From: Archangium violaceum
Lineage (GTDB): Bacteria > Myxococcota > Myxococcia > Myxococcales > Myxococcaceae
Direction of reading: 5' to 3'
Assembly (NCBI RefSeq): GCF_016859125.1
Contig: NZ_CP069338.1
Span: forward strand, 8,311,501-8,375,500
DNA: 64,000 bases
Shown: piece after piece, positions 18,862 through 49,074 of the stretch
Position numbering within the stretch: the stretch's first letter is position 1
How the letters are laid out: the number at the start of each line of letters is the position of its first letter
Notes under the pieces: generated by a model
Database searches by the model: none
What the model was told of the DNA's origin: nothing
Seen by the model: the letters and a program-made list of their open reading frames with translations, nothing else
Position numbers and translations under genes: made by a program

Positions 18862-21084
18862 ATGCACTCGACTCGAATCGCTTGGCTCCCGGCCCTCGTC
18901 GGGCTGATGTGTGGCCTCGCCTCTGGAATTGGGGCGGCGCAGACGAAGAGCGGGCCCACCGCCCAGGCGGCGGATGTCCCGACGGCGCGCAAGCCCTTGC
19001 CGCTGCCGCCTCCCTCCACGTCGAACGTCCCCCAGCGCGCGCCCTTCACGGGTCCGTCCACCTCGCGACCGCTGCCTCCGCCCTCGGGCCTGGCCGGGGT
19101 GGACATTCCGGATCCGCTCTCCGCTACCAGTGACTCCTCGCTGGAGGAGTCCGTGCAGCAGCTGCTCAGCGAGGCGGTGGTGTCCACGGCCTCCAAGCGC
19201 AGCCAGCGCATCGCGGACGTGCCGATGACCATCTCCTGGATTCCCGCCGAGGAGCTGGAGGGCACCGGCCAGTTCACCCTGTGCGAGGCCATCCAGTACT
19301 TCCCCGGCATGGAGTGCCGGCGGGGCTCCATGCGCAAGGCGGCGGTGAGCGCGCGCGGCCTGGGCTCCAACTACCTCTCCAACCGGCTCCTGCTGCTCAA
19401 GGACGGCCGGCCGCTGACGGACCCCTGGACGGGCCAGTTCTACGCGGACGAGACCACGCCGCTGAGCAACCTCAAGCAGATCGAAGTCATCCGGGGCCCC
19501 GGCTCCTCGCTGTACGGCTCCAACGCCTTCAGCGGCGTCATCAACATCATCGAGCGCCAGCCCTCGGACCTGATGCAGGACGGGCGGAACTGGGGCGCGG
19601 ACGCGCGGCTGCTCGCGGGCCAGGATCGCACCTGGCGCGCCCAGGCCACTGCGGCGGGCCGGGGCGGACCGGTGGAGGCGCTCGTCAACTACTACGGCTT
19701 CGGCTCGGACGGCCCCCAGCTCTTCAATGATCCGCGGCAGAACCTCGTGGACACCAACGAGGACTCGCTGGTGCACCAGGTGAGCGGCAAGGTGCAGGTG
19801 AAGGGGCTGCGGCTGGACGCCGACTTCACCACCGCCGAGCTCGGCCGCCCCGGTGGCCACCAGATCTCCACGGTGGGCAACTGCGGCCGCTGCCACTACA
19901 CGCCCGACGACGTCGAGAAGGTGCAGAACTTCAACGCGAGCGCGCAGTTCGACCAGCAGGTGTCCGACAACCTGCGCGTGTTCGCCCAGGCGTACACCCT
20001 CTTCAAGCGCCGCCAGGTGGAGATGGAGAACGCCTTCGACGAGGGCAATCCCCAGGCGCCGCTGGGCAAGCGCCGCCGGCTGGGCGGTGAGGCTCGCGCG
20101 CTCCTCTCTCTGGGTGACCTGACCGTCACCTTCGGCGGTGACTACAAGAACGACCTGGTCAACAACCCCAACGTGCTGCCCGGCCTGTCGCTGGACGACA
20201 CGCGGCAGCAGATCCTCGGCGGCTTCGTCGACGCCGAGTTCCGGCCCGTCAGCCAGCTCGTGCTCAGCGCGGGTGCCCGCTACGACAAGTACATGATTCC
20301 GGAGACGGTCTGGCAGGCACGCACGGATCAGATCTCCCCGCGCGCCAGCGTGGTGTTCCACGCCCGGCCGGATCTGTCCTTCCGCGCCAACTACGGCCGC
20401 GCCTTCCGCGCCCCCACGCTGGCGGAGCTGGCCATCAACCAGCAGATGTACGCGGCCACGCTGCTGGGCAACGGCAACCTGAACGCCGAGACGCTGGACA
20501 CCTTCGAGGCGTCGATCGACTTCTGGCCGTTCGACCGCACGGTGCGCATGACGGGCACGGGCTTCTACAACCTGGCCAAGAACTTCATCAACCAGGAGCT
20601 CCTCTTCGGCTCCACGTCGCAGTTCAAGAACGTGGGTGACGCGCGTGTGGCGGGCTTCGAGCTGGAGGCGGCGGCGCAGGTGGCGGCCATCAACTCGTCG
20701 TTCGACGTGTCGTACCAGTTCCTGAACGCGCGCGCGCTCGCCTTCGAGGGCCGGCCGGAGCGCCCGCTGGACTACGCGCCCCAGCACCGCGTGTACGCGC
20801 GCGGCCGGACCAACTTCGGCAAGTTCGCCTTCGCCGAGCTGTACGCCATCTACGTGGGGGACCGCTTCGATCCGGGGTTCCTGGAGAATTCCGACACGGG
20901 TGAGCTCGAGCAGGTGAAGCTGCCCGGCTACTTCACCGCCACCGCGCGCGTGGGGGCCAATGTCACGAAGGGGCTGACGGTATCGGTGCTTGGCTCCAAC
21001 CTCTTCAACGCGAAGTATGAGGAGTCCCACGGATTCCCCGCGCCCCCGCTGAGTGTATTCAGCGAGGTCAAGTTCCAGTACTGA
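18862..21084 (+). CDS. TonB-dependent outer membrane receptor
   Basis: A 740-residue protein with a signal peptide (cleavage near GIGAAQ), a Pro-rich linker to about residue 85, a plug domain (ASKRSQRIADVPMTISWIP, LLLLKDGRPL, IEVIRGPGSSLYGSNAFSGV) and a 22-strand-type barrel ending in an aromatic residue (SEVKFQY). The plug continues into sequence resembling vitamin B12/colicin receptor types. The substrate is unknown, and no Fur-like site was seen in the 170-base gap upstream. A CxxCH motif (CGRCH) occurs in the barrel, encoded at 19882-19896, with no other cysteine close by. The gene may be monocistronic. Confidence 0.88.
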   Translation: MHSTRIAWLPALVGLMCGLASGIGAAQTKSGPTAQAADVPTARKPLPLPPPSTSNVPQRAPFTGPSTSRPLPPPSGLAGVDIPDPLSATSDSSLEESVQQLLSEAVVSTASKRSQRIADVPMTISWIPAEELEGTGQFTLCEAIQYFPGMECRRGSMRKAAVSARGLGSNYLSNRLLLLKDGRPLTDPWTGQFYADETTPLSNLKQIEVIRGPGSSLYGSNAFSGVINIIERQPSDLMQDGRNWGADARLLAGQDRTWRAQATAAGRGGPVEALVNYYGFGSDGPQLFNDPRQNLVDTNEDSLVHQVSGKVQVKGLRLDADFTTAELGRPGGHQISTVGNCGRCHYTPDDVEKVQNFNASAQFDQQVSDNLRVFAQAYTLFKRRQVEMENAFDEGNPQAPLGKRRRLGGEARALLSLGDLTVTFGGDYKNDLVNNPNVLPGLSLDDTRQQILGGFVDAEFRPVSQLVLSAGARYDKYMIPETVWQARTDQISPRASVVFHARPDLSFRANYGRAFRAPTLAELAINQQMYAATLLGNGNLNAETLDTFEASIDFWPFDRTVRMTGTGFYNLAKNFINQELLFGSTSQFKNVGDARVAGFELEAAAQVAAINSSFDVSYQFLNARALAFEGRPERPLDYAPQHRVYARGRTNFGKFAFAELYAIYVGDRFDPGFLENSDTGELEQVKLPGYFTATARVGANVTKGLTVSVLGSNLFNAKYEESHGFPAPPLSVFSEVKFQY

Positions 21085-21092
21085 GTCGCCAC

Positions 21093-21953
21093 GTGAGAGT
21101 CGCCCATCGCCCGGGGGCCGCCACCGGCCTCCACCTCATCGCGGATCCCTCGCTGGCTCCCGCCTCGCTGGAGCAGGCCGCGCCCACGCTCGTGCGCGGG
21201 GGCCTGCCGTTGGTGACGGGGCGGGCGGGCGTGCCGCGGGAGCCGGTGCGCGAGCTGGTCCTCTTCGACGGTCGTCTGGGGCCGTCCCACGCGGCGCTGC
21301 TGGAGAAAGACCCGGCGGCGCTGCTGCTGGCCACGCGCGAGCCGGGGGGCCTCCCGTCCGCGTGGGAGGTGCGGGTGCTGGCCGCGCTCATGCGGGGCGA
21401 GTCGATGCTGCCTCTCGGGGCGGCCGTGGCGAAGCTGTGGTTGGAGCAGGTGGTGGACATCCAGAGGGCCTCGTCCGAGGCCGCCGCGCGGGTGGAGTCC
21501 TCCCAGGGCAGCCGGAGCGCGGCCCACCTCGCGGCCGAGGTGATGCACGAGCTGGCGGCCAACGCGCTGCTGGACGCTCCGGTGGATGCGAACGGCACGC
21601 CGCTCTATGCCCACCGGCGCGACTCGGTGCGGGCCGTGGCGCCGGAGCACGTCTGCCAGGTGGCGTTCGCGGTGGGCGAGGGCGGCCTCTACCTGGAGGC
21701 GGTGGATCTCTTCGGACGGTTGACGCCCGGGCCCATCGCGCGAGCCGTGGCCTCGCTGGGTGGGCGTCTGCAGGTGAACGCCTCGGGTGGTGGGGCGGGG
21801 TTGGGGATGCGGCGCATCCTGGACGCGTGCGATCTCATCGCGGTGCGCGTCGTGCCAGGGAAGGAGACGCGGATGCTGGGCGTTGTCGGGCTCGGGGAGG
21901 CGCGCCGCCGCGCCGCGCTCCCCAAGTCGTTGCTGTACTTCAAGCCGGAATGA
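21093..21953 (+). CDS. GHKL/HATPase-like protein (anti-sigma-kinase-like)
   Basis: A 286-residue protein beginning at GTG 21093. The second half has a divergent GHKL ATPase pattern: EVMHELAANALLDAP (N-box, ExxxNA), GLYLEAVDLFGRL (D-box position) and GGGAGLGMRRILDACDLI (glycine-rich lid). RsbW/RsbT-type switch kinases and related ATPases share this layout. The first 100 residues are unassigned. Its stop overlaps the start of the STAS-containing kinase gene as ATGA, which suggests the two products act together in a partner-switch. The D-box is weak, so ATP binding should be tested. Confidence 0.6.
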   Translation: MRVAHRPGAATGLHLIADPSLAPASLEQAAPTLVRGGLPLVTGRAGVPREPVRELVLFDGRLGPSHAALLEKDPAALLLATREPGGLPSAWEVRVLAALMRGESMLPLGAAVAKLWLEQVVDIQRASSEAAARVESSQGSRSAAHLAAEVMHELAANALLDAPVDANGTPLYAHRRDSVRAVAPEHVCQVAFAVGEGGLYLEAVDLFGRLTPGPIARAVASLGGRLQVNASGGGAGLGMRRILDACDLIAVRVVPGKETRMLGVVGLGEARRRAALPKSLLYFKPE

Positions 21954-24900
21954 GGAGCGGGACGGTGGAGACGCAGCAGGGTTCCAATGCCACTATCAGC
22001 CGCGTGCGCGTGGGTACCATCAACCACGTCCGCATCGCTGGCGTCATCGATGAGACGTTCCCGCTGACGTCGTCCTCGCCGGACCTCGGTGGGCTCATCA
22101 TCGTCGATCTCGGCCAGGTGGAGCGCATCAGCTCCTTCGGCGTGCGGCGGTGGATCGAGTTCGCCAGCAAGCTGCCTCCTGGAGGCATCGCGCTCTACGT
22201 GGTCAACGCGCCACCGGTGATGGTGGACCAGCTCAACATGGTGGAGGGCTTCGCCGGCGTGATGCGGGTGCTGTCGGTGCTGGCGCCCTACACGTGCCGC
22301 GCCTGCGGCGAGGATCGGCTGCGACTGGTGGATTTGCAGGCGGATGCGCCCATCATCGCCGAGGGCCGCGCCCCCGAGCACTCCTGCCCGGTGTGCGCCG
22401 GCAAGCTGGAGTTCGCGGATCTGCCGAGCGAGTTCTTCGACTACGCCCGGCGCCAGCAGTTCGGCACGGTGGATCCGGTGGTGATGCGCTACCTGCGCGC
22501 CACCACGCCCAGCGCGCCCAGCTCGCTCACCGCGCACCTGAAGATCGTCCAGGACGACATCACGTACATCACCCTCGCCAGCGAGTTGAAGGGGGACCTG
22601 AACGTGCGCCGGCTGGCCTCGGGCCTGGAGGGGCGCGTCGCCTTCGACTTCTCGCACGTCACCAAGGTGGAGCCCGAGGCCGTCCCCAAGCTGGAGCAGG
22701 TGCTCAGCACGGCGGCGCAGGGCGCCAAGGTGGTGCTGTGCCGGGTGCCCCCGCCGGTGCTCAGCGCGCTGGCGCGCTTCACCAAACAGCTCACCGCGCG
22801 GATCGGCACGCTGTGGCTGCCGTGTGAGTGCCGCAACTGCGGCCACGAGCACCACCAGCGCGCCCTGGCCTCCGAGTACCTGGCCAAGCTGCGCGCCAAC
22901 GCCAGCCCCGAGCGCGAGTGCCCCATCTGCGGCGGGACCGCGCGGCTTCCCTCCATTCCCCAGCTGGTGCCGCTTCTCAGCCGCTCGTCGCTGGTGGAGC
23001 AGCCACTGGAGGACCTCGAGGCGCTCGAGCCGCGGGCCCTCAGCCAGTACCTCTTCGGCTCCACCAACGTGGATCCGAACGTCAAGGGCGGCAGCACGGA
23101 CATCAGCAACTCCATCAGTGCCACCAAGCTGCAGATCATCCGCCGGCTGGGCCAGGGCGGTATGGCCGAGGTGTTCCTCGCCAAGCAGGTGGGCGTGAAG
23201 GGGTTCGAGAAGTTCGTGGTGATGAAGAAGATCCTCCCGCAGTTCGCGGAGAACGGGGAGTTCGTCGACATGCTCTTCGCGGAGGCGCGGGCCAACGCGC
23301 GCCTCACGCACCCCAACGTCGTGCAGACCTTCGACGTGGGCATGAACGACGGCGTGGCGTACATCCTCATGGAGTACGTGCGCGGCCCGGATCTCAAGAA
23401 GCTGATGAACGAGCTGCGGCGCAAGGGCCTGGCCCTGCCCATCGAGCACGCGCTGCGCATCGTCGCCGAGACGGCCGCGGGCCTGCACTACGCGCACAGC
23501 TACGTGGACCCCGCTGGCGTGCCCCACCCGGTGGTGCACCGCGACGTGAGCCCCCACAACGTCCTCATCTCGCTCGATGGCGCCATCAAGCTGAGCGATT
23601 TCGGCATCGCCAAGGTGCAGGGCGAGGAGAACACCCAGGCGGGCGTGCTGAAGGGGAAGATTTCCTATATCTCCCCCGAGGCCGCCGCGGGCCGCCCCCT
23701 GGACGCGCGCAACGACGTGTTCGCCCTGGGCGTGGTGCTCTTCGAGCTGCTCACCGGCCAGCTGCCCTTCAAGCGCGACCACGACGCGGCCACGCTCAGC
23801 GCCATCGTGCGCGAGCCGGCGCCCGTGCCGTCGCAGCTCAAGCCGAACATCCCCCAGGACGTGTCGGATCTCATCCTGCGCGCCCTGGTGAAGGATCCGG
23901 CGCGCCGCACGCCGTCCGCCGCGGCCATGCGCGAGGAGATCGAAGCGGTGATGGCCCACCACCGCCTCAATTCGTCGCCAGCGGCGGTGGCCCAGTTCTT
24001 CAAGGCCACGCTGGGCGAGCGGCTCGCGGAGTTCGGACCCACCCAGAATGGTCCGTTCACGGGCTCGTTCCCGAGCGTGGGAGGACAGCAGAGCACGGGC
24101 TCGGGCAGTCCGCCTCGCCCCCTCGTCGCCCCGGGCGGGACGGGCGAGCCCGCGGCGGGCTCGAGTCCCCGGCCTGGCGCCGGTACCGGACAGCCTGGCG
24201 CAATGCCGCAGCCCCAGGCGGTGGCGGCACCGCGTCCACCACCGCCTCCTCCCGGCGCTGCTGGCGCGGACGAGCGCACCGAGGTCTACCGGTCGGCGCA
24301 GCAGGGCCTCATCGCTCCCAATGCCCTGCCTCCCGAGCCTCCCACACTGAACGTCTCGGCTCATGAGCCCGCGGTGCCGGCCGCGCCCTCGCGCTCCATG
24401 CCGGCCGTGCCCTCGCGCTCCGTGCCGGCCGTGGCGCCTCCCGTGCCGCCACCTCCGCCGCCGACCGTGGCGTCGCGTCCGGCGGCTCTGTCCTCGCCGG
24501 GCATGGCCTCCGTGCCCGCGTCCATGCCGGCGCGTCCGTCCCTGTCCGTACCCGCGGTACCGCCCAGGCCGTCCCTGGCCTCCGCGCCCGTGGCGCCTCC
24601 TCGTCCGTCCGGGCCCGCGCTGCAGCCCGCCGTCCCGGTGTCCGGCCGCACTGCGACCCAGGTCTCGCCTGGCGCTCCTCCCGTGGGTGCGCCTCCCAGG
24701 ACTCCGGCTCCCGCGGCGCAGCCCCCCGCTCCCAAATCCTCGCCGCTCAAGTGGATCATCCTGGGCGCCGTCGGGCTCGTGGTCGTGGGTGGGGCCGGCG
24801 TGGTGGTTCCCAAGATGCTCTCGGGCGGCGGTGTCGAGGTGATCAACCGTGAGCCGGGCGAGCAGCTCTACGCCGCGGGCCTCCGGGTGGATGACCCTGG

Positions 24901-25249
24901 CAGCCTCGATCTGGCCGGCGTCAATCAGAACGTCGTCTCGACCGCGAAGAACGGTCAGTTGCGCCGCTTCGGAATCGCGGTGCGCAAGGACCTCATCGAC
25001 GTGCGCACCCTGCCCGAGGCCAGGCCGGAGCCGGGCAGCAAGGGCACGTTGAGCGTCGGCGGGCAGCCGGGTTGCTTCGTCAAGGTGGGCGAGGAGATGG
25101 CGCCCGGTGCGACGCCGGTGTCGATGCCGATCGAGGCCGGCAAGGAGATCGAGGTGATCGTCACCTGCCCCAATCAGCCGGTGTGGTCGCGGTGGGTGAT
25201 GGCGGTGCCGGGGCAGGAGGTGCAGGTCGTCCCGCTGCCGAAGAACTAG
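21950..25249 (+). CDS. Hanks-type Ser/Thr kinase with STAS-like and zinc-ribbon modules
   Basis: About 1099 residues. Order: STAS-like domain (about 17-112; IIVDLGQVERISSFGVRRWI), zinc ribbon (CRAC then CPVC, about 115-147), second STAS-like domain (about 178-285; VAFDFSHVTKVEPEAV), second zinc ribbon (CRNC, CPIC), kinase domain (about 395-665; LGQGGMAEVF glycine loop, VMKK lysine, HRDVSPHNV catalytic loop, SDFGIAK), long Pro/Ala-rich linker, a transmembrane helix at about 933-955, and a C-terminal PEGA-like domain. STAS proteins are targets of switch kinases, so this one chain may join partner-switching and Hanks signalling (inference). ATG 21950 overlaps the upstream stop; GTG 21965 behind GAGGAG is an alternative start. 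Confidence 0.85.
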   Translation: MRSGTVETQQGSNATISRVRVGTINHVRIAGVIDETFPLTSSSPDLGGLIIVDLGQVERISSFGVRRWIEFASKLPPGGIALYVVNAPPVMVDQLNMVEGFAGVMRVLSVLAPYTCRACGEDRLRLVDLQADAPIIAEGRAPEHSCPVCAGKLEFADLPSEFFDYARRQQFGTVDPVVMRYLRATTPSAPSSLTAHLKIVQDDITYITLASELKGDLNVRRLASGLEGRVAFDFSHVTKVEPEAVPKLEQVLSTAAQGAKVVLCRVPPPVLSALARFTKQLTARIGTLWLPCECRNCGHEHHQRALASEYLAKLRANASPERECPICGGTARLPSIPQLVPLLSRSSLVEQPLEDLEALEPRALSQYLFGSTNVDPNVKGGSTDISNSISATKLQIIRRLGQGGMAEVFLAKQVGVKGFEKFVVMKKILPQFAENGEFVDMLFAEARANARLTHPNVVQTFDVGMNDGVAYILMEYVRGPDLKKLMNELRRKGLALPIEHALRIVAETAAGLHYAHSYVDPAGVPHPVVHRDVSPHNVLISLDGAIKLSDFGIAKVQGEENTQAGVLKGKISYISPEAAAGRPLDARNDVFALGVVLFELLTGQLPFKRDHDAATLSAIVREPAPVPSQLKPNIPQDVSDLILRALVKDPARRTPSAAAMREEIEAVMAHHRLNSSPAAVAQFFKATLGERLAEFGPTQNGPFTGSFPSVGGQQSTGSGSPPRPLVAPGGTGEPAAGSSPRPGAGTGQPGAMPQPQAVAAPRPPPPPPGAAGADERTEVYRSAQQGLIAPNALPPEPPTLNVSAHEPAVPAAPSRSMPAVPSRSVPAVAPPVPPPPPPTVASRPAALSSPGMASVPASMPARPSLSVPAVPPRPSLASAPVAPPRPSGPALQPAVPVSGRTATQVSPGAPPVGAPPRTPAPAAQPPAPKSSPLKWIILGAVGLVVVGGAGVVVPKMLSGGGVEVINREPGEQLYAAGLRVDDPGSLDLAGVNQNVVSTAKNGQLRRFGIAVRKDLIDVRTLPEARPEPGSKGTLSVGGQPGCFVKVGEEMAPGATPVSMPIEAGKEIEVIVTCPNQPVWSRWVMAVPGQEVQVVPLPKN

Positions 25250-25295: not shown

Positions 25296-27608
25296 ATGAA
25301 GGGCTGGACTCTCTTTCCCCACCTCGTCGTCCGCACCACGGGGTTTCCCTTCGAGCGGCTGGAGAGCCTGCGCTGTCCCGAGGCGGCGGCGAGCGCCCGG
25401 ACGCTGTGGGCCGAGCAGCGTGCTCTGGAGGCGCTGAAGGCGAGCGGTCCGCGTCTGCACCGGCCTCCGCCCGCCGTCCTGGCGGCGTTGAAGGCGGGGC
25501 GCCCGGTGGAGGTGGAGGGCCTGGAGTCCCCCGGGTTCTTCGCCGGCTACAACGTCCACGCCCGGGCCGCGCAGGAGGCTGCTTCCGCCTTCGAGTCGGC
25601 CTTCACCCGCGAGTCGGCCCGGGTGGAGGAGGCGCTCGCGGCGCTGCGCACGGAGCCCCGCTTCCTGGAGGCGGTGGCCAGCTCCAGCCCTCCGGTGGCG
25701 AGGGATTTGATCGCTGGCCGGGACGGGGCCCGGCTGAAGCGGCAGGTGGCCAGCTACCTGCAGCGCCTGTGCGCGAAGAACGAGACGATGAGCTTCTTCG
25801 GCCCCATCAACTACGGCCGGGTGGAGCCCGACGCCCCCACGGGAGTCACGGTGCGCTGGTCCGGCCCGGAGTCGCTCGTGGGGCGAAACACCTTCGCCGC
25901 CTCGTGGTTGGTGCTGGGTCTGGTGCGCGCCATCGCCGCCGATCCAGAGGTGGCGCCTTGTCTCGTCCTGCGCCTCAAGTCCTTTGCCTCTCTGCCCCCG
26001 AGCAAGGGAGCGGCGCCCCGTCCCGCGAGCGTGGAGGAATTGCTCCCGAGGCTGGTGGAGGCCGTGGATGGGACGCGACCCTTGTCGGCCCTTCGCGAGG
26101 CGCTCGGGGTGGAGTGGCCGCTGCTGCTCGAGACCGTGGGCTTCGGCCTGCGGCGGAATCTGTTCACCCATCAGCTCGAGGTGCCCGCGGCGTCGCACCA
26201 CCCGCTGGAGGACCTGGCCGAGCGGCTCGCTGGTCTCCCCGGCACCGCGGCGCGTGGGCACCTGCGCGCGCTGGAGGGGTTGCTGGGGTTGATGGCTCGC
26301 TATGGCGCGGCGGACGCTGCGGCCAAGATGGCGCTCAACGAGGAGATGGCGAAGCGCGCCCGGGAGTGCTGGAGCGTGGCGCCACAGGCTCCCACCTCGA
26401 CGTCCGCCGAGGGCCACAACTTCTACCAGGACCGTCTCCCGATGCGGGAGGAGTGCGGCGGAGACCTGCGCCTCTCGCTGGGCGGTGAGCGCGCTCGGGA
26501 GCTGGCGCGGCGGCTGGAACCGGCGCTCGGGTTGATGGGCGAGGCGGCGCTGCGCACGCGCGAGGCGGCCCGGTCGGCCGTGGCGGCCCTGGTGGGCGCT
26601 CGGACGGTGCCGTTCTGGAAGGTGGTCGCGGCGTACGGTGAGAAGCCGCTGCCCTATGACACGTCCGTGGCCACGGCGCTCGCGGCGGCCATCTCCGACC
26701 CGGCGGCCTCCCGCGTGGAGTTGGATCCGGCGGTGCTCCCCACGCCTCGCGCGGACGTGGAGCTGCCGATCGTCACCTCGATTGATCTGCTCGTGGGCGC
26801 CTCGGACGTGGAGGCCTGGAGTCGCGGCGACTACGAGCTGGTGGTGGGGGACGTGCATGACACGGCCCTGGTGTGGGGCTGGGCACTGCAATTCCACGAG
26901 GCGCGCGGGCGGGTGGAGAGTGAGATGGTGCGGGCGCTCGGGGCGCTGCGGCGGCCGATGCCCTTCATCACCGTGCTGGCCTCGCGGCGCACCGGCCTGC
27001 TGCCCTCCGAGTTCCCCGGGCCCGTCGTCGAGCTGGGCGGAGTGAGTGCCCGGCCCTCGGCGTGGCGGTTGCCTTTCGATGACCTCCAGGTGGAGAGCGA
27101 CGGGCGCACGGCTCGGCTGATGTCCACGCGGCTGGGCTCGGAGGTGTGTCTCTACAACGGCGAAATGGAGAGCCTGGTGCAGACGGCCTTCGCCCTGCCA
27201 CGCGTCCGGCCCCTGCGAGTCTCGCTGGGGGCGCACACGCCCCGGTTGGTGCTCGGTGGCGCGGTGCTTCAGCGCGAGCAGTGGACGCTGGAGGACTCGG
27301 ACGGGGAGGCGCTCCTCGCATGCAAGGATGACCGGGCCCGGCTCCGGATGGCGGTGGCCATCTGGGCGCGCAGGGGACTGCCGGACCACGTGTTCGCGAA
27401 GTTCCCTGGCGAGCGCAAGCCGGTGCTCATCGACGTGCGGAGCCCGGCGCTGCTGCGCGTCTTCGTCAACCTGCTCGAGCAGAAGGGCGAGGTGGTGCTG
27501 TCGGAGATGCGGCCCTCGCCCGAGCAACTGTGGCTGGGCGCGAAGGACGGGCGGCACACGGCGGAGCTGCGTTGCTGCTTCCTGTGGGGCACGGAGTCTC
27601 GGGAATGA
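25296..27608 (+). CDS. LanB-like (lantibiotic dehydratase N-domain) protein 1
   Basis: A 770-residue protein of the divergent Lant_dehydr_N group. Marks are RTTGFPFERLE at the start, LQRLCAKNETMSFFGP at about 154-169 (the counterpart of the LanB R-x-TPFG segment; many short family members read KNDTxxFFGP), FYQDRLPMREEC at about 377-388, and a C-terminus PSPEQLWLGAKDG. There is no SpaB_C elimination domain. Known LanBs glutamylate Ser/Thr from Glu-tRNA and then eliminate; elimination-less relatives include split LanBs and PEARLs, which add amino acids from aminoacyl-tRNA. The activity here is inferred. It starts 46 bases after the kinase gene and overlaps the next gene by ATGA. Confidence 0.8.
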   Translation: MKGWTLFPHLVVRTTGFPFERLESLRCPEAAASARTLWAEQRALEALKASGPRLHRPPPAVLAALKAGRPVEVEGLESPGFFAGYNVHARAAQEAASAFESAFTRESARVEEALAALRTEPRFLEAVASSSPPVARDLIAGRDGARLKRQVASYLQRLCAKNETMSFFGPINYGRVEPDAPTGVTVRWSGPESLVGRNTFAASWLVLGLVRAIAADPEVAPCLVLRLKSFASLPPSKGAAPRPASVEELLPRLVEAVDGTRPLSALREALGVEWPLLLETVGFGLRRNLFTHQLEVPAASHHPLEDLAERLAGLPGTAARGHLRALEGLLGLMARYGAADAAAKMALNEEMAKRARECWSVAPQAPTSTSAEGHNFYQDRLPMREECGGDLRLSLGGERARELARRLEPALGLMGEAALRTREAARSAVAALVGARTVPFWKVVAAYGEKPLPYDTSVATALAAAISDPAASRVELDPAVLPTPRADVELPIVTSIDLLVGASDVEAWSRGDYELVVGDVHDTALVWGWALQFHEARGRVESEMVRALGALRRPMPFITVLASRRTGLLPSEFPGPVVELGGVSARPSAWRLPFDDLQVESDGRTARLMSTRLGSEVCLYNGEMESLVQTAFALPRVRPLRVSLGAHTPRLVLGGAVLQREQWTLEDSDGEALLACKDDRARLRMAVAIWARRGLPDHVFAKFPGERKPVLIDVRSPALLRVFVNLLEQKGEVVLSEMRPSPEQLWLGAKDGRHTAELRCCFLWGTESRE

Positions 27609-29113
27609 GGCTGCTCGTCCTGCTTCCGCATCGTGACGTGACGTGTGTGCCGGATGCGCCCGAGGGCTGGCGGGTGCTCGACGTAGCGCGAGCCTTCTGT
27701 CAGCGCGTGATGGCACCGGAGACCCTGGCGCGAGCGGTGGAGACGCGGGAGCGCGGGCCCGCCACGCCCGAGACGATGCGGGAGTTGTTGCTGCTGCGCG
27801 CCGCGCTCGTGTTGGGGAAGCGGGGGAGGGCGGATCCACTGCGGCCCCTGCGAGCCCTGGGCGCGGTGCTGACGGCGCTCTCCGGTCCACCGTCGGGCGT
27901 GCGCCTGCGGCTGGACGATATCGAGTTGGAGGGTGGCACCACCGAGCGCTCGGCCGACGTGCTGCGGATTGTCCAGCGGCCCGCGCTCTACGACGAGGAC
28001 CTGTCCCGTACGGTGGAGCACTTGCCGGGCGCGGAGCGGGTGCGGCTGTGGTTGGAGAGGGATCTGCAACTCCCCGCGGCAGTGGCGCTGGCGGCGGCGT
28101 GTCCGGCGTCGGTTCCGCTGGAGGTGGCGGGCCCCTTCGCGGCGATGCATCGCGCGGTGTTGGCGGCGCTCCCTATCTTTCAGCGGGCCTCGTTTCCCGA
28201 GGACGTGGCGCCTCTGCGTTGGAGGGTGGCGGCGCTGGACGCGGCGGATCCAGAGCCGCTCACCTGGGTCCCCGAGAACGTGCGTCCACCGGTGGACGGA
28301 GGGCCCTGGGCGGGCCATGTGCCGCAGGGGGCGTTGCTCGACCCGGAATCCCTCGTGACGAGCGGCTGTCGCACGGCGGTGGTGGGCTTCTGCTCGATGG
28401 ACGAGGGCGGTGTCGTGGGCAGTGATGGCGTGCGTGTGCCGCTGGAGTCGCTGGTCGCTTCGGTGGAACGTCTGCGCTCCGGTGGAGCTCGAGTGGTGGC
28501 GGAGTGGTGGGTGGGGGCTCCCGGTGTGGACGAGGCCGCGCACGAGCGGACCTTCGCGCTGCTCGGGCAGCGTCCCGTGTTCGATTGGGTCTCGGGAGTG
28601 AGGCCGTTCCACTGGACGCGCGGGCGCCCTGGCGAGGACTTCGCGGGCGTGCCGGTGCGCTTCCTCGCGCCGCCCGAGGATCGGGATCTGGCGCGCACGG
28701 TGCCCTTCGAGGCGCAGGGGACGGTGCCTCACGCCCGCCTGCCGGAGTTGCTCACCTCGTTGGCGGGGAGGCTGCTGCAACGCGCGCCGCTCAGCCCGGG
28801 CCGGGTGGCCTGGGCCTCCATCCATCCACCGAGCCCTGGGGCGCCTGGAGGCGACCGGGTGCGCTTGGATGGAGACTGCGCGCTGGTGCAATTGCCGGCG
28901 ACGCTGGACGGCGTGGTGAAACCTTCCTGGTACGCGGCGAACCTGCGTACGGGTGGGGTGCTGGCCATGGACGCGAGGCTCGCGCCGATGGTGGCGGGGG
29001 CGGAGCATCCGGTGACGGTGGGCGAGCTCTTCGCGACACTGCCGGAGGTACAGCGCGGCAAGGTGGATGCGGCGCTGGTGGGGAGGGCGGTCCTCGAGAG
29101 GGTACACGCATGA
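27605..29113 (+). CDS. Unassigned protein between two LanB-like genes
   Basis: A 502-residue protein, ATG at 27605 overlapping the preceding stop, its own stop overlapping the next start. I do not recognise the family. It opens with a hydrophobic strand MRLLVLLPHRDV, has alternating strand/helix segments suggesting an alpha/beta barrel (VRLWLERDL, VPLEVAGPF, CRTAVVGFCSMDEGG, GARVVAEWW), and ends with about 55 residues (VTVGELFATLPEVQRG onward) that could form a small winged helix like PqqD/RRE-type domains. The gross plan resembles radical-SAM RiPP enzymes, but no CxxxCxxC cluster motif is present. It may be a degenerate scaffold or peptide-binding partner of the flanking LanB-like enzymes. 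Confidence 0.7.
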   Translation: MRLLVLLPHRDVTCVPDAPEGWRVLDVARAFCQRVMAPETLARAVETRERGPATPETMRELLLLRAALVLGKRGRADPLRPLRALGAVLTALSGPPSGVRLRLDDIELEGGTTERSADVLRIVQRPALYDEDLSRTVEHLPGAERVRLWLERDLQLPAAVALAAACPASVPLEVAGPFAAMHRAVLAALPIFQRASFPEDVAPLRWRVAALDAADPEPLTWVPENVRPPVDGGPWAGHVPQGALLDPESLVTSGCRTAVVGFCSMDEGGVVGSDGVRVPLESLVASVERLRSGGARVVAEWWVGAPGVDEAAHERTFALLGQRPVFDWVSGVRPFHWTRGRPGEDFAGVPVRFLAPPEDRDLARTVPFEAQGTVPHARLPELLTSLAGRLLQRAPLSPGRVAWASIHPPSPGAPGGDRVRLDGDCALVQLPATLDGVVKPSWYAANLRTGGVLAMDARLAPMVAGAEHPVTVGELFATLPEVQRGKVDAALVGRAVLERVHA

Positions 29114-31401
29114 GCGAGCGCTGGACGCTGGGCGAGGTCTTCGTACTCCGTCACGCGGGTTTCCCTTTCGACTGGCTGGAGGGCCTGGGGTTCTCGGAGG
29201 AGTTGCGCTCCGAGGTGGCGGTGTTGCTCGAGGACGAGCGGGCGCTGGTGGATGCCGTGCGCACCTCCGCGGGCGAGGACGCGGCGCGGACGGCACGTGA
29301 GGCACTGGAGCGGGGCAAGGAGCCCTCGCTGAAGCCGAAGTACGGGCCCGGGTGTGCACAGGCGCTGGAGCGCTACCGTGCGCGGCGGGAGACGTTGTCG
29401 GCCCGGTACGCGGAGGAGCGACAGGAGCTGCGAAGGCGCCTGCGCGAGCGGGCGGCGGATTCCTCCATCCAGGAGGCGGTCTTCTTCTCCAACCCGGCCA
29501 TGTACGAGAACGTCTGGTCGCGTTACCTGGAGGGGGAGCCGAAGCCGGATAACTCGGATGCGCGCCGGGTGGAGCGGCAGGTCTACACGTACCTCCAGCG
29601 TTTCTGCGCGAAGAACGAGACGACGAGCTTCTTCGGTCCCATCTCCTATGGCGAGTGTGATGGGGACGACGGCTCGGACGTGCGCGTGGTGCCGAGTGGG
29701 AATACGCGGCGGCGCACCTTCCTCACCTTCTGGGCCATCACCGAGCTGGCGCGGGCCGTGGCTCGGGAGCGCGGGGTGCGCCCGTACCTGCCGCTGCGTC
29801 CCAATCCGATCTTCAAGGTGGAGGCGGGCCGGGCGAGCTGCGCGCCGTTGAGGCTGGAGGTTGCGCTGTCGCCGGAGGCGGAGCGGCTGCTCGCGGTACT
29901 GCCCACGGCTCCGACGCTGGACGCGGCCTCGCGCGCACTGGGCCTTCCAGTGGAGTCGGTGGAGCGGCTCGTGGTGCCGCTGGTGAAGTCAGCGGTGGTG
30001 CTGCTGGGGCTGCCCTTCGTCCCCAACGACTTCGGTGCCTTCGCGAGCCTGCGTGAGGCCGTGGCGGCGCTGCCCGACTCGGAGGCCCGGGAGCGCTGGC
30101 TGTCGCGGCTGGACGAGCTGGAGCGCCTGCGCGCCGCGTTCGAGGAAGCCGGGCTGGCCCGTCGCCGGGAACTGCTCCAGACGTTGGAGTCGCGCTTCAC
30201 CGAGTACACGGGCAAGCCCGCGAGGCGAGGCGAAGGGCAGGTGTACTCGGATCGGCTCATCCTCTACGAGGAGGCGTCCTCGCCCTTTCGGCTGAAGCTG
30301 GGCCGGCGTTTCAGCGAGGAGGTGGCGGCGAAGCTGTCCGGAGGGCTGGAACTCTCGGCGGCGTACGGGGACAGCGTGCAGCGCAGCTACCGTGAGCAGG
30401 TGCGGGACGCGCTGGGCCCCGAGGAGCGCCCGCTGGACTTCCTGGAGTACGCGGTGCGGCTGCGGCCGGACCAGGTATCGGGGAGCCGCTTCGCGCCGGT
30501 GCCCCCCATCCAGCTCGATGAGGACATGTCGCGAGCCCGGACGCTGCCGGAGGACTTCCTGGGCACCTCCAGGCCGGGAGGCCGCTATGCGCTGCCGGAC
30601 GTGTGTCTCGCGGCGACCGGAGGCGGCTATGAGGTGCTGCTCGCCCGCGTGCACCACCACCTGATGCTGTGGAGTTGGCTGAGCGCCTTCTACCCGGACC
30701 GTGCGCGCTACGAGTCGGTGGCGGGTCAGTGGCTCCAGCGCGAGCCGGCGGCGAAGGGGCTGGTGGGGCTTGCCATCCGTCGGCGCAACAAGGGCTTCTA
30801 CGTCTTTCCGGGGCGGCGGCTGGTGTACTCGGTGTCGGACGTCCTGGACGTGGAGCAGGACGCCCTGAAGCCACACGACGTGAAGGTGTTGCCGACGCCC
30901 GAGGGGCCGGTGCTGATGAATGGGGAGGGACAGCGGCTCTCGCTGTACATGCCGCTGGACGACTTCAACACGTACCCGCCGTTCGCGGCGCTGGCGCATC
31001 CGCAGGTTCTGCACGCGAAGCTGCGAACCGAGGGCCGACACCTGCCGAGGCTGAGCATCGGAGGCGCGGTGTACCAGCGGGAGCGGTGGGAGTTGCCGAC
31101 AACCTCGTTCTCACAGGTGAGCGGGATGGACCTGCTGCTCGCGGTGGAGCGCGAGCGCCACGCGAGCGGCTGGCCCCGCTTCGTATTCGTGCGCAGCACC
31201 ACGGAGCGCAAGCCGTACCTGATCGACACGGCCTCCCCGTTCGCGATGGAGTTGCTGTTGTACCTGTCGCGCGCGGCGGAGCAGCTCTCGGTGGAGGAGA
31301 TGTACCCGGCACCGGAGCAGCTGTGGCTGAAGGACGAGCGGGGCCGCTACACCTGCGAGATGCGAATGCAGGCGGTGCGCTGGAGCGAGGAGCGAGGCTG
31401 A
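29110..31401 (+). CDS. LanB-like (lantibiotic dehydratase N-domain) protein 2
   Basis: A 763-residue paralogue-like companion of the first LanB-like protein. Shared marks: LRHAGFPFDWLE at the start, TYLQRFCAKNETTSFFGP at about 155-174, VYSDRLILYEEA at about 377-389, ARVHHHLMLWSW at about 515-526, YQRERWELP, and PAPEQLWLKDERGRY at the end. It also lacks a SpaB_C elimination domain. The two proteins are clearly diverged, so they probably recognise different tRNAs or different positions on a scaffold (inference). The ATG overlaps the preceding stop and the oxidase gene begins 3 bases after its own stop. Confidence 0.8.
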   Translation: MSERWTLGEVFVLRHAGFPFDWLEGLGFSEELRSEVAVLLEDERALVDAVRTSAGEDAARTAREALERGKEPSLKPKYGPGCAQALERYRARRETLSARYAEERQELRRRLRERAADSSIQEAVFFSNPAMYENVWSRYLEGEPKPDNSDARRVERQVYTYLQRFCAKNETTSFFGPISYGECDGDDGSDVRVVPSGNTRRRTFLTFWAITELARAVARERGVRPYLPLRPNPIFKVEAGRASCAPLRLEVALSPEAERLLAVLPTAPTLDAASRALGLPVESVERLVVPLVKSAVVLLGLPFVPNDFGAFASLREAVAALPDSEARERWLSRLDELERLRAAFEEAGLARRRELLQTLESRFTEYTGKPARRGEGQVYSDRLILYEEASSPFRLKLGRRFSEEVAAKLSGGLELSAAYGDSVQRSYREQVRDALGPEERPLDFLEYAVRLRPDQVSGSRFAPVPPIQLDEDMSRARTLPEDFLGTSRPGGRYALPDVCLAATGGGYEVLLARVHHHLMLWSWLSAFYPDRARYESVAGQWLQREPAAKGLVGLAIRRRNKGFYVFPGRRLVYSVSDVLDVEQDALKPHDVKVLPTPEGPVLMNGEGQRLSLYMPLDDFNTYPPFAALAHPQVLHAKLRTEGRHLPRLSIGGAVYQRERWELPTTSFSQVSGMDLLLAVERERHASGWPRFVFVRSTTERKPYLIDTASPFAMELLLYLSRAAEQLSVEEMYPAPEQLWLKDERGRYTCEMRMQAVRWSEERG

Positions 31402-31404
31402 CCG

Positions 31405-32511
31405 ATGAGCGCGACCCGGGACGTCCTGGTACTCGGAGCCGGAGTGATGGGCCTGTCGGTGGCACGCCGGCTGGCGATGCTGGGGGCGCGGGTGACGGTG
31501 TTGGATCCGATGGATCCAGGAGGGCAGGGCTCGCGAGCGGCGGCGGGGGTGGCGATTCCCTCGGTGCGGCTGCTGGACGACCCGGACATGCTCGCCTTCA
31601 CGAGGGCGGCACACGGGGCACTGTCCGAGGAGCTGGCCGCACTGGGTGAAGGCCTGCATCTGCGCCGGGGACAGGGAGTGCTCCGGGTGGCGATGGACGC
31701 GAAGGGCCGGGACGCGCTCGGACAGAAGGCGGCGAATCACCCCGAGTGGCTGGGAGCCTGGACGGACGCGGCGCGCGTGGTGGAACTGGAGCCCGCGCTG
31801 GAGGGCACGCCCATCCTCGGGGCCTTCCTGACCGAGCAGGGCTTCATGGTGGACACGGAGGCCTACCTGAACGCGCTGTTGCACGACCTGCACCGGAGGG
31901 GTGTGCGGGTGCGCCTGGGCGAGGGAGCGCGAGCGGTATCCGAGGTGGAGGGCGGAGTGGAGGTACGGACGGAGCACGAGACGCTCCGAGCCGGGACGCT
32001 GGTGGTGTGCGCGGGGGCGTGGTCCGGAGGAATCGCCGGGCTGCCGCCATTGCCGGTGAAGCCCCTGCGAGGGCAGATGCTGACAATCTTCCACCCGGAG
32101 GTGCGGCTCACGCGGGTGGTGTCGGGGCCCACGTACCTGGCGCCCTGGCGCATGGGGGAGAGCGTCGTGGGGGCGACGGAGGAGGACGTTGGCTTCGCGT
32201 GCCACGTGACGCCGACGGGCCTGATGCACCTGGGAGCCACGGTGGCGAAGCTGGCGCCGAGACTGCGCGAGGCCCGCTTCGGGAAGGCGTGGGCGGGACT
32301 GCGTTCAGTGACGCCGGGGGGCAAGCCGCTCATTGGCCGCTACCCGGGGACGAAGGCGGTGCTGATCGCCAGCGGGCATGCGGGGCAGGGCATCCTCACG
32401 AGCGCACTGACGGGCCGTGCCGTGGCCGAGCTCATCGAGCACGGGCGCAGCGAGATTGCCGCCGCTTTCGCGCCGGAGCGCGTACTCGCGACAGTTCCGG
32501 AGCGTTCGTAG
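31405..32511 (+). CDS. FAD-dependent amine/amino acid oxidase (ThiO/DAO-like)
   Basis: A 368-residue oxidase of the DAO family, with the dinucleotide motif VLVLGAGVMGLSVARRL at residues 7-23, a GSRAAAGVAIPS flavin-contact segment, TLVVCAGAWSGGIAGLP near the middle, and the C-terminal GHAGQGILTSALTGR loop. Family members such as glycine oxidase (ThiO) oxidise small amino acids or secondary amines to imines with H2O2. In the ammosamide-type PEARL pathway an FAD-dependent oxidase acts on a tRNA-derived glycine, so a similar task on a residue added by the neighbouring LanB-like enzymes is plausible. No free amino acid substrate is indicated. It is the last gene of the coupled run. Confidence 0.85.
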   Translation: MSATRDVLVLGAGVMGLSVARRLAMLGARVTVLDPMDPGGQGSRAAAGVAIPSVRLLDDPDMLAFTRAAHGALSEELAALGEGLHLRRGQGVLRVAMDAKGRDALGQKAANHPEWLGAWTDAARVVELEPALEGTPILGAFLTEQGFMVDTEAYLNALLHDLHRRGVRVRLGEGARAVSEVEGGVEVRTEHETLRAGTLVVCAGAWSGGIAGLPPLPVKPLRGQMLTIFHPEVRLTRVVSGPTYLAPWRMGESVVGATEEDVGFACHVTPTGLMHLGATVAKLAPRLREARFGKAWAGLRSVTPGGKPLIGRYPGTKAVLIASGHAGQGILTSALTGRAVAELIEHGRSEIAAAFAPERVLATVPERS

Positions 32512-32538
32512 GTTCATTGCGCTTTTGGGGGGATTGTG

Positions 32539-32652
32539 ATGGCAGCACCGTCTAGGTCTCAGCCGGTTCCTCAATACACGATCACAACAGTCGAAAAGCT
32601 TCAGCAGGACTATGGTGTCGCACCCCTGACAGGGCCTGCGCCCGATGAATGA
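32539..32652 (+). CDS. Possible 37-residue peptide (candidate scaffold)
   Basis: A short ORF 27 bases after the oxidase stop, with a GGGGGG run 6 to 12 bases before its ATG. The peptide begins MAAPSRSQPVPQYTITTVEK and continues with QQDYGVAPLTG and a PAPDE end. It is soluble, lacks cysteine and has Ser/Thr clustered at positions 5-17. Its position suits a peptide substrate for the LanB-like enzymes, but base use is less GC-rich than the operon, and the reading frame continues after its TGA for another 73 codons. It could therefore also be the front of a nonsense-interrupted gene. Confidence 0.4.
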   Translation: MAAPSRSQPVPQYTITTVEKLQQDYGVAPLTGPAPDE

Positions 32653-32670
32653 GATGCTCTTTTCGGTCAG

Positions 32671-32871
32671 GTGACCTCGCCGACCTTCGAGGCGAACAAC
32701 ATCTGCACCCTCGACGCCACCCGTCTCGGTTTCGCTGCGGGAGCGGACAACAGCCGCCTAAGAGTCAATGCCGCCATCCGCGACATCCTTACCGCCGCAT
32801 TGACCGAGGAGAGCGAAACAGCCGCGCGGCTCGGATACTCGCTCCGGACCATCGAAGGCTTTCACCTGTGA
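32671..32871 (+). pseudogene. Small ORF, same frame as the preceding peptide
   Basis: A 66-residue frame that can start at GTG 32671 but without a good ribosome binding site. It lies in the same frame as the 37-residue peptide, separated only by TGA 32650-32652 and six sense codons. Joined through that TGA the product would be 110 residues. The sequence (LDATRLGFAAGADN, VNAAIRDILTAALTEE) is not recognised. Base composition is lower in GC than the operon, and an AT-rich stretch (32872-32930) follows, so this may be the remnant of an acquired gene. Confidence 0.35.
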
Positions 32872-33135
32872 TACCATAACCTTACAGTTGTAGATTCAAA
32901 AACAAACGGAGATCAACCTTCCTCAAATTGCTCGTCCGCAGGGGCATCGTCGTCCTGTCCCTGTGCTTGCTTTCCCCTGGAAACAGCAGAGGGCGAGGGT
33001 GACTTCCCACGTCACGCCGCTGTAACCACCTGGCAGGGAGGCAGCCATGGGGGCGAACAATTCGAGGGGATGGACGTGACGGCGGAGGTCATGTGGTTCC
33101 ATCCCATGGAAGAAGTCGAGTCCAAGGGGGAACGC

Positions 33136-33255
33136 ATGTCCAAGTCCATCACGGCGGAGTCCACCCGTGTCGTCCCCACCGGCACGGAGGCAACCCTCGT
33201 TGCGAAACTCTCCGAGGCGTTGAAGCGAGTAGTTGTTACCGCGCAGCGTAGATGA
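33136..33255 (+). CDS. Small hypothetical protein
   Basis: A 39-residue ORF with a good ribosome binding site (AAGGGGG, 5 bases upstream). The sequence begins MSKSITAESTRVV and ends in a basic helix EALKRVVVTAQRR. An upstream in-frame ATG at 33070 would extend it by 22 residues. No family recognised. It precedes the zinc-ribbon element gene at 33480 by 224 bases that hold no other gene. It may belong to the same mobile element. Confidence 0.4.
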   Translation: MSKSITAESTRVVPTGTEATLVAKLSEALKRVVVTAQRR

Positions 33256-33479
33256 GGGAGAGCGGCCCGGAATCGGACCGACTGGATGATGGAAAGGGGG
33301 CCCGGGTCGTGGTGCGCCCCATCACCCAGCGGGTTCGGGTAATCGCCTGACGGCCGAAGTAGGGGGAGCCGAGGAGGGCGGAGCTGAAACGGCATGAAGC
33401 CGTCCCCGACGTCCCGGCGAGGGCGGGGAAGAGAAACAGGGGCAGGTACAGGCCAGGGCCCCGGGCTCCGCGAGAGGCG

Positions 33480-34115
33480 ATGGAGAAGCGGACAGCAGGC
33501 CGTCAGCAACTGGTGCGCAGTCGGGTGGGAGTGGACGGGTGGGCGAAGGCCCCGCCGAGCGTGGAAGCGGCAAGGCCGGGGCAATGCCCGAGGTGTGGAG
33601 CGGCCAGTCGGCCGGTGGGAGTCGGCACGGTGTTGCAGGGGCATGGCACGCGCAGCCGTCAGGTGCGAGGCCCTGCGCAACCCGGGCAGCAGGCGCGGGT
33701 GCGGGTGGTGCAGGTGCGGCGCTACCGCTGCCAGGCGTGCGGTGGCACGTGCACGGTGGCCCCCTGGGAGGTGGCGTGGCGGCGGCTGTACTCGGTGGCG
33801 GCGATAGCGTGGGCCCTGGCGCTGTGGGGGTTGGTGGGGATGGGGCTTACGGCCGTGCGCCGTCTGGTCAACCCCTGGACACACACAGGCGCCAGTGAGG
33901 CCGGACGCTGGCGCACGCCGCGGCGCTGGCTGCGCGCCGTGCACCAGGGGCAGATGCTCCCACAAGTGCACGCCCTGCGCCCCTGGCCGCCGCACTGGCT
34001 CCCGCGCAAGGCCGCTGCCCACGTCGCCAGTGTCGTGGCCGGCTACGCCCCGCCCGCCGCTCCCTCCCCGCCGCTGAGTGTGCAGGCATTCCTGGGCGCC
34101 GTGCGCGCTCAGTGA
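33480..34115 (+). CDS. Zinc-ribbon, mobile-element-type protein
   Basis: A 211-residue basic protein with two CxxC pairs (CPRCGAAS and CQACGGTC) about 54 residues apart, consistent with a zinc ribbon, and helix segments after it (RLYSVAAIAWALALWGLVG, LTAVRRLVNPWT, RWLRAVHQG). It resembles short zinc-finger proteins annotated beside transposons (DUF6431-like). I am not certain of the family. An AGAGGCG run precedes the ATG. Start to stop it is intact. No DDE motif is visible, so it is not a complete transposase by itself. Confidence 0.5.
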   Translation: MEKRTAGRQQLVRSRVGVDGWAKAPPSVEAARPGQCPRCGAASRPVGVGTVLQGHGTRSRQVRGPAQPGQQARVRVVQVRRYRCQACGGTCTVAPWEVAWRRLYSVAAIAWALALWGLVGMGLTAVRRLVNPWTHTGASEAGRWRTPRRWLRAVHQGQMLPQVHALRPWPPHWLPRKAAAHVASVVAGYAPPAAPSPPLSVQAFLGAVRAQ

Positions 34116-34216
34116 GGGACAGACCTCAAGCCCAGGGCCCGACAGCTTCACCCACCCGACAAGTCCCCTTCCTGGTCCGCTCCCGGCCGGGCACGCTGGA
34201 GGTATGTCCTGCGCCC

Positions 34217-34248
34217 AGGCCCTGTCGGCCCCGGGGCCGACAGGGCCT
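34217..34248. repeat. 32-bp perfect palindrome
   Basis: Bases 34217-34232 (AGGCCCTGTCGGCCCC) are followed directly by their exact reverse complement at 34233-34248, with no spacer. It lies about 100 bases after the zinc-ribbon gene. It could be a terminator stem, a recombination or element-end site, or the head-to-head junction of a short inverted duplication. Confidence 0.9.
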
Positions 34249-34392
34249 CACCGGAGGCAGCACATGGAGTCTGACTGGTGCTCCGCGAGCCATGGCTGCT
34301 GCCCGCTCCCTGGCTGGCGGGAGTGCCTGAGGGCACCGGCCGGGGCCCTCGGCCTCAACGGCACGTCGACGCCGTCAATCCCAATCCGGTGC

Positions 34393-34428
34393 GAGTCCAA
34401 CTCCAGAAGCAGCGCACCAGTTGGACTC
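34393..34428. repeat. 10-bp inverted repeat with 16-base loop
   Basis: GAGTCCAACT (34393-34402) and AGTTGGACTC (34419-34428) are exact reverse complements. The pair lies between the palindrome and the tandem duplication. It may be a hairpin or a relic of element ends. Confidence 0.7.
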
Positions 34429-34495
34429 CCAGCCATGGCCCCTCATCGGCAGTGCCCTCCCCGCGCGCATGGAAGATGAGGGCTCCATCACCGGG

Positions 34496-34581
34496 CCTGC
34501 TCCAAGCCCGCTCATCCTCGCTGATGCCCATCAGCCAGCCTGCTCCAGGCCCGCTCATCCCCGCTGATGCCCATCAACCAG
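34496..34581. repeat. 43-bp tandem duplication
   Basis: Two adjacent 43-base copies start at 34496 and 34539 (each begins CCTGCTCCA and includes CGCTGATGCCCATCA). They differ at three positions. The repeat lies just upstream of the truncated IS701-type transposase. Confidence 0.8.
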
Positions 34582-34631
34582 CCGGTCCAAATCTCCATCA
34601 ACAAGCGTGCGCGGCAACAGTAGTGGAGTAG

Positions 34632-36104: not shown

Positions 36105-36170
36105 TGAGCTTGCAAATGATCCTCAGCCTCGTGATAAAGCCGAAGAACGCGGAGGGTACACGGCCCGCTG

Positions 36171-36355
36171 AGCCGAGCAAGCAAGAAGGTCTTCTCCGAC
36201 TTCACCCCGAAGACGCCAGTCGATGTATTGAGTCTCTCCGATGTGGGGAGCGCGGAGCAGTGCCGGGACTTGGCAAAAGGCTACAACGGCGCTTTGTATG
36301 CGCAACACGGTTATCACACCAAGATGTTTACGAACTTCCACGAGGTCAAACAGGT
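36171..36355 (+). pseudogene. YARHG-domain-like fragment
   Basis: One frame reads LSRASKKVFSDF, then SAEQCRDLAKGYNGALYAQH, then GYHTKMFTNF and ends into unrelated sequence. The ALYAQHGY core with a following aromatic segment resembles the YARHG extracellular domain. The frame has no proper start: stop codons and the IS701 remnant lie directly upstream. It probably is the surviving middle of a surface-protein gene cut by the insertion sequence. The lipoprotein gene at 36356 starts in another frame at its end. Confidence 0.4.
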
Positions 36356-37339: not shown

Positions 37340-37426
37340 CCGGAAAAGGAGGGTGACGCGCCTGACCTCCCGAGTGGTAGAGGGGTGTTGTTCAGACATC
37401 CACAACCACAAGGCAGGAGGCGCGTC

Positions 37427-38865: not shown

Positions 38866-38893
38866 CTGCCTGGAGTCAATTGCAGCTCACGTG
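38859..38893 (+). terminator. Hairpin at the 3' end of the IS1380-type gene
   Basis: CACGTAGCTGC (38859-38869) and GCAGCTCACGTG (38882-38893) pair with a single bulge around a 12-base loop. The stem overlaps the TAG at 38863-38865. It may terminate the transposase transcript or mark the element end. No other feature was seen up to 39009. Confidence 0.4.
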
Positions 38894-49020: not shown

Positions 49021-49074
49021 CCCTCGATTGCTCGCGGGGCTCCCTCTCCGCGACACCCTTTTTTCACCCAAAAT

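Follow-up and report, generated by a model that had tools for sequence, protein, structure and literature searches.

An ammosamide/lymphostin-type (pearlin) pathway core with dispersed partner genes, predicted in Archangium violaceum

Pearlin pathways, in which LanB-like enzymes (PEARLs) add amino acids from aminoacyl-tRNA to a carrier peptide, were discovered recently, and their biochemistry has been worked out for a few clusters of Streptomyces, Bacillus, and Pseudomonas. In the ammosamide (amm) pathway, AmmB2 is a Trp-tRNA ligase, AmmB3 is a Gly-tRNA ligase acting on the Trp-derived quinone, and Amm14 oxidises the glycyl adduct (PMC11117183, PMC12715798). AmmC1 and its Bacillus counterpart BhaC1 are flavoenzymes (PMC11117183). 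In Streptomyces uncialis DCA2648, a published ammosester (ame) producer, the genes are read in the order carrier-TPR-B1-B2-10-B3-TldD-TldE-14 (PMC8210675). Here, we compare with these systems four coupled genes, A to D, of Archangium violaceum. They lie in a window of 64,000 nucleotides (positions 8311501-8375500 of the 12.68 Mb single-contig genome).

Genes A-D (Table 1) are joined by ATGA overlaps at the A/B and B/C junctions and by a 3-base gap at the C/D junction, as given in a preliminary description of the locus. That description also proposed two LanB N-domain proteins without SpaB_C and a DAO-type oxidase, and both assignments were borne out. PF04738 (Lant_dehydr_N) was the sole Pfam family above the cut-off in A (E 4.3e-15) and in C (E 4.2e-20), and D matched DAO with an E-value of 3e-57, while its best NCBIfam match, TIGR02352 (ThiO), stayed at 186 bits, under the cut-off of 250.8 bits. 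In domain content A and C are PEARL-type proteins, with a glutamylation-type PF04738 domain and no SpaB_C. The third protein, B, had been assigned to no family and indeed had no matches in the Pfam and NCBIfam searches, but by homology and by its gene position, the same as that of S. uncialis Amm10, it is an Amm10 homolog. Read against the S. uncialis gene order, A corresponds to AmmB2 (Amm9), B to Amm10, C to AmmB3 (Amm11), the TldD/E pair to Amm12/13, and D to Amm14.

A maximum likelihood tree of 27 PEARL-type proteins placed A in the AmmB2 clade (support 100/99) and C in the AmmB3 clade (100/100), both apart from the AmmB1 and AmmB4 clades. The two had been described as twins; judging from the tree, they are instead ancient paralogs that would act at different steps. 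In the DAO tree, in which long branches were flagged, D fell into the Amm14 clade (95/94), apart from bona fide ThiO. Altogether, orthologs of AmmB2, AmmB3, Amm10, AmmC1, and Amm14 were recovered in this genome by trees and similarity searches. Very probably, A-D form the core of a pearlin pathway of the ammosamide/lymphostin type, with its genes scattered along the chromosome. The combination of PEARL and glycine oxidase chemistry of the ammosamide type, already suggested in the preliminary description, is supported by orthology (AmmB2, AmmB3, Amm14), by gene order, and by a carrier peptide found in exactly the C-bearing genomes.

For the A-B-C trio, the proteins were 78-91% identical to those of five further Archangium genomes and approximately 50-74% identical to those of Myxococcus-type genomes, B being the least conserved, and the same 4-base overlaps at A/B and B/C recur in the actinobacterium Actinomadura craniellae. 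Because the proteins are conserved in Archangium, Myxococcus-type, and Actinomadura genomes, the trio is not a chance reading of the sequence. Besides this genome, the other five genomes of the genus all have a homolog of B, as do four further genera of the family; in four of these five genera it is flanked by A and C. A scan of GTDB genomes with C added Myxococcus, Pyxidicoccus, Citreicoccus, a Rubrobacter metagenome-assembled genome (MAG), and several actinobacteria; one of the Myxococcus-type loci came from a strain deposited as Myxococcus xanthus. In Actinomadura, Actinokineospora, and S. uncialis, the trio is bordered on one side by a small Asp-rich peptide and a TPR protein, with an extra LanB-like gene on that side in three of six actinobacterial loci, and on the other side by TldD/TldE-type genes and a D-like oxidase. 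The small peptide of Actinomadura matched NF033737, the ammosamide/lymphostin leader family. Conservation of the neighbourhood, which had been proposed as a check, was found across genera for A-B-C; in Myxococcus and Citreicoccus, other genes lie between C and D. In Myxococcus-type loci, three small conserved proteins without a Pfam match (approximately 150, 133, and 126 aa; L045 6909-8367) are encoded between C and D. They were rejected as carriers, being unlike AmmA and not placed there in Archangium.

The substrate peptide had been expected nearby, but the carrier was located 4.4 Mb from A-D. The hidden Markov model NF033737 (Amm_Lyn_leader) gave one strong match in the genome, at G000:C1:47457-47537 (54.9 bits against a cut-off of 30; G000:C1 is the chromosomal contig), and the peptide, an AmmA-type carrier, ends in IAPLALA. 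The C-terminus KIAPLALA was identical in all seven carriers read, and the PLALA terminus has been reported to be critical for the Trp-adding PEARL BhaBC-Trp (PMC11962472). Encoded beside the carrier are a Rieske/VanA-type oxygenase, a TldD homolog with HEVCGH, a TldE homolog, and a tetraheme c-type cytochrome resembling a lipoprotein (four CxxCH motifs). On the other side of the carrier, a nonribosomal peptide synthetase (NRPS) with six condensation/adenylation modules and a thioesterase after them is conserved in Archangium, and NRPS genes occupy the same place in Myxococcus-type and Citreicoccus genomes. The earlier remark that no protease or exporter is adjacent holds for the genes adjoining A-D, although the TldD/TldE protease pair sits with the distant carrier. 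The AmmC1 homolog, encoded beyond the end of the window, is a TPR protein like AmmC1 and BhaC1 (PMC11117183) and shares 35% identity with the S. uncialis TPR protein (E 4.6e-83); its gene adjoins D in Myxococcus and the carrier in the MAG SSF41. A hidden peptide substrate in the C-terminus of the kinase encoded upstream of A was also considered and was dropped once the genuine carrier had been located.

The carrier and C were found in the identical 34 of 195 Myxococcota genomes (six Archangium, 25 of a Myxococcus-type genus, two of a Citreicoccus-type genus, and SSF41), while the other 161 had neither. Likewise, the carrier, AmmC1, and A-B-C occurred in the same nine of 59 relatives.

Since PDB chains yielded no useful sequence matches to C or B, their models were subjected to a fold search. 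The model of C (mean pLDDT 87.3) matched TbtB (Z 20.1 over 669 aa, 4.5 Å), GodF (Z 18.6), MibB (Z 18.4), and NisB (Z 17.9), as well as MadB, and contains an RRE-like domain at approximately residues 223-302. The profile of A found TbtB (6ec7) with an E-value of 9.5e-9. The glutamylation-domain fold is retained, in C according to the model and in A according to the profile match. In BhaBC-Trp, residues R197, Q201, Y205, and R208 for the tRNA and E813, R815, and R34 near the ATP/carboxylate were shown or modelled to be important (PMC11962472). By motif and spacing rather than by alignment with BhaBC-Trp, their counterparts are R146-Q150-Y154-R157, E757-x-R759, and R13 in A and R153-Q157-Y161-R164, E750-x-R752, and R14 in C; in an alignment, RxxxQxxxYxxR, ExR, and the N-terminal Arg are kept in A, C, and their AmmB2/AmmB3 relatives. 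The structural check suggested in the preliminary description therefore favoured the PEARL assignment, as C keeps both the fold and the aminoacyl-tRNA motif.

For B (pLDDT 89.4), residues 1-412 share the overall fold of the radical S-adenosylmethionine (SAM) enzymes TsrM (Z 11.0) and AprD4 (Z 10.7), and residues 414-502 resemble the RREs of TbiB1 (Z 7.3) and PbtF (Z 6.8), scores within the common range of the tool. The features modelled for B agree with a published remark on Amm10 (PMC12715798), and the C-terminal RRE, which TsrM and AprD4 lack, is a prediction resting partly on that agreement. The CxxxCxxC [4Fe-4S] motif is absent from B and from every aligned homolog, and B was for this reason ruled out as an active radical SAM enzyme. 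TsrM acts on tryptophan, and its likeness to B may be a coincidence. Orphan Amm10 homologs without adjoining A or C were seen at L034 8817-10532 and L033 8493-10229, one of them in an Archangium and the other in a genome without the pathway.

By analogy with the published amm and bha biochemistry, the 57-aa carrier would be made first, and A would phosphorylate its C-terminal Ala with ATP and add Trp from Trp-tRNA. The AmmC1 homolog would then hydroxylate the indole to a hydroxyquinone, C would move Gly from Gly-tRNA onto the quinone ring, and D would oxidise the ring Gly to leave an aminoquinone and glyoxylate. More speculatively, binding or presentation of the carrier is probably the part of B, which is radical-SAM-like, lacks the cluster motif, and has an RRE; TldD/TldE probably free the modified residue, and the Rieske oxygenase and the NRPS may tailor or use the product. 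The directly observed basis of this scheme is homology, orthology, fold, conserved motifs, and co-occurrence. The bha pearlin cluster of Bacillus halodurans (BhaA, BhaB7, BhaC1, BhaB5, BhaG) would share its logic of Trp addition, indole trihydroxylation, Gly transfer to the quinone, and glycine oxidation. The PLALA terminus is common to both, but in the bha pathway Ala is attached ahead of Trp, while the carrier of the myxobacteria has PLALA at its end from the start. The likely product is an aminoquinone derived from Trp and bound to the peptide, which may be released and handed to the NRPS; with AmmB1 and AmmB4 apparently missing, it should be a mono-aminoquinone.

The likeness to the amm, ame, and lymphostin clusters of Streptomyces comprises orthologs of AmmA, AmmB2, Amm10, AmmB3, AmmC1, and Amm14, the TldD/TldE pair, and the A-B-C order, with the 4-base overlaps shared by Actinomadura. 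In contrast to those clusters, a halogenase or methyltransferase was not seen beside the genes, the carrier is accompanied by a Rieske oxygenase, a tetraheme cytochrome, and an NRPS, and kinase/phosphatase and TonB-receptor genes lie upstream of the core. Ammosamide- and lymphostin-type pathways are encoded in one cluster, whereas in the single-contig genomes the carrier and C are megabases apart. Several observations weigh against a pathway of this type. No counterparts of AmmB1 and AmmB4, which serve the second ring nitrogen and the Arg tag, were found in this genome, and as TldD/E acts in the amm pathway after AmmB4 has added Arg (PMC12715798, PMC11117183), release could differ or not occur. 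Neither TldD/E nor NRPS genes adjoin the carrier in SSF41. The 34 co-occurrences span four genera and are phylogenetically clustered, and hence are not 34 independent cases. Trp and Gly are assigned to A and C by orthology at 35-40% identity, because the amino-acid specificity of PEARLs cannot be read from the sequence, and whether C aminates the ring at C5 or C7 cannot be predicted. All steps are drawn from homology.

Apart from A and C, a single PF04738 protein of the genome lacks SpaB_C; it falls outside the B1 and B4 clades on a long branch, so that a diverged copy is conceivable. It has 844 aa, is encoded outside the window at G000:C1:24520-27054 (L036 8521-11055), 20 kb from the carrier, and is flanked by two proteins of approximately 455-461 aa.

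The same enzymes could also produce an aminoquinone that, bound or released, serves as a redox cofactor or signal (cf. pyrroloquinoline quinone, tryptophan tryptophylquinone) and not as an NRPS building block. The tetraheme cytochrome lipoprotein and the Rieske oxygenase at the carrier locus, the linked TonB receptor and kinase operon, and the occurrence of one copy of the pathway in each of the six Archangium and 25 Myxococcus-type genomes, which contrasts with the patchiness of a biosynthetic gene cluster, fit this role. We nevertheless regard it as rather unlikely, given the six-module NRPS and thioesterase beside the carrier in Archangium and the NRPS genes there in Myxococcus and Citreicoccus; moreover, no quinoprotein partner was identified, and cytochrome homologs are present also in genomes without the pathway. 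In a doubtful extension of the idea, Myxococcus and Archangium would throughout their lineage use the Trp aminoquinone assembled on the carrier as a redox cofactor or signal, and not as an antibiotic-type product. The dispersed pathway would make it, the linked TonB receptor and kinase/phosphatase genes would provide for its sensing or import, and Amm10 would be the pseudo-radical-SAM carrier handler of all such pathways.

It appears improbable that the pathway has been repurposed, with A and C adding other amino acids or acting on a protein C-terminus and not on an AmmA-type peptide. The amino-acid choice of PEARLs has shifted between related clusters (Gly, Leu, Asn, Arg; PMC11117183, PMC12715798), but the constant KIAPLALA matches the Trp-accepting terminus, and there is perfect co-occurrence with AmmC1, characterised homologs of which hydroxylate the added Trp. 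It is also very unlikely that D is just a glycine oxidase of the thiamine pathway that happens to neighbour the LanB-like genes. ThiO is its best NCBIfam match and other genes part it from C in two genera, but six of the nine genomes tested carry a separate over-cut-off ThiO, while D-type copies score 186-193 bits, group with Amm14, and are confined to the A-B-C genomes among the nine. Finally, A and C match PF04738 and C has the fold of TbtB and GodF, split LanB glutamylation subunits, yet TbtB acts on Ser/Thr together with Glu-tRNA and an eliminase, and no such partner was found here: the two SpaB_C (PF14028) copies of the whole genome lie within distant full-length fused LanBs, a profile search of this genome found no stand-alone SpaB_C protein of the kind named beforehand as counter-evidence to PEARLs, and A and C fall in PEARL clades with a matching AmmA-type carrier, so that dehydration of a lanthipeptide or thiopeptide with an eliminase encoded elsewhere can practically be dismissed.

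Table 1. Genes of the predicted pathway and of the conserved run upstream of it (positions in the window unless given for contig G000:C1).
Feature	Position	Strand	Description
A	25296..27608	+	770 aa; AmmB2-type PEARL; predicted Trp-tRNA-dependent Trp addition at carrier C-terminus
B	27605..29113	+	502 aa; Amm10 homolog; degenerate cobalamin/radical-SAM-like fold 1-412, predicted RRE ~417-502
C	29110..31401	+	763 aa; AmmB3-type PEARL; predicted Gly-tRNA-dependent Gly attachment to Trp-derived quinone
D	31405..32511	+	368 aa; Amm14/BhaG-type FAD glycine oxidase; predicted conversion of glycyl adduct to aminoquinone
Carrier peptide	G000:C1 ~47454-47627		57-aa open reading frame ending EEIESKIAPLALA-stop; NF033737; purine-rich stretch upstream
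AmmC1 homolog	G000:C1:8377263-8379077		TPR flavoenzyme, putative indole hydroxylase; 1.8 kb past the window, 35 kb after D
STAS-STAS-Ser/Thr kinase protein	21950..25249	+	Pro-rich and C-terminal region; Pkinase E 8.4e-42; directly upstream of A
286-aa protein	21093..21953	+	No Pfam match; member of same conserved run; synteny in relatives
TonB-dependent receptor	18862..21084	+	Upstream in same run
PhnD-like binding protein	17784-18692	+	Upstream, same run; pathway link by proximity only
TPR protein	15250-17787	+	Upstream, same run; pathway link by proximity only
HAMP-SpoIIE phosphatase	13634-15244	+	Upstream, same run; pathway link by proximity only

The STAS/Ser-Thr-kinase gene ends 46 bases before A and precedes A in every Archangium and Myxococcus-type locus reaching that far, and by gene order A-D are therefore the tail of a longer conserved run. 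In SSF41, a homolog of the TonB receptor is encoded on one contig with the carrier and AmmC1. Downstream of D (32538-39000) lies a gene remnant, the start of which resembles a 1481-aa neighbour in a relative's locus (L026), followed by transposase genes at 34828-35967 and 37427-38746; as sister genomes have no transposases there, the region appears to have been rearranged in this strain. The genes at 48247-58721 read as a 2,3-dihydroxybenzoate/NRPS siderophore (myxochelin-type) cluster, judged from the sequence only. Among the other loci, BNCN01000007.1, labelled Comamonas sp. KCTC 72670, has a typical Myxococcus-type locus with 72% identity to C and is probably a mislabelled or contaminated assembly. 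The Rubrobacter MAG has homologs of B (40% identity) and C (50%) and, after them, part of another PEARL-like gene, which suggests either inter-phylum transfer or a misbinned contig.

While pearlin chemistry itself is already known, this analysis newly assigns the individual steps, identifies the carrier, and describes a dispersed architecture shared across the lineage; no publication on this myxobacterial pathway was found in the literature searched, most subscription journals being outside its reach. With the genes dispersed, tools that look for single clusters would report only orphan 'lantibiotic dehydratases', and the perfect match of carrier and ligase across the 195 genomes offers a direct means to link them. 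The reduced gene set also narrows the role of Amm10, because Amm10 is kept in it, whereas AmmB1, AmmB4, and genes for chlorination and methylation were not seen. An ammosamide-type core in six of six Archangium and 25 Myxococcus-type genomes would place the pathway in genetically tractable organisms.

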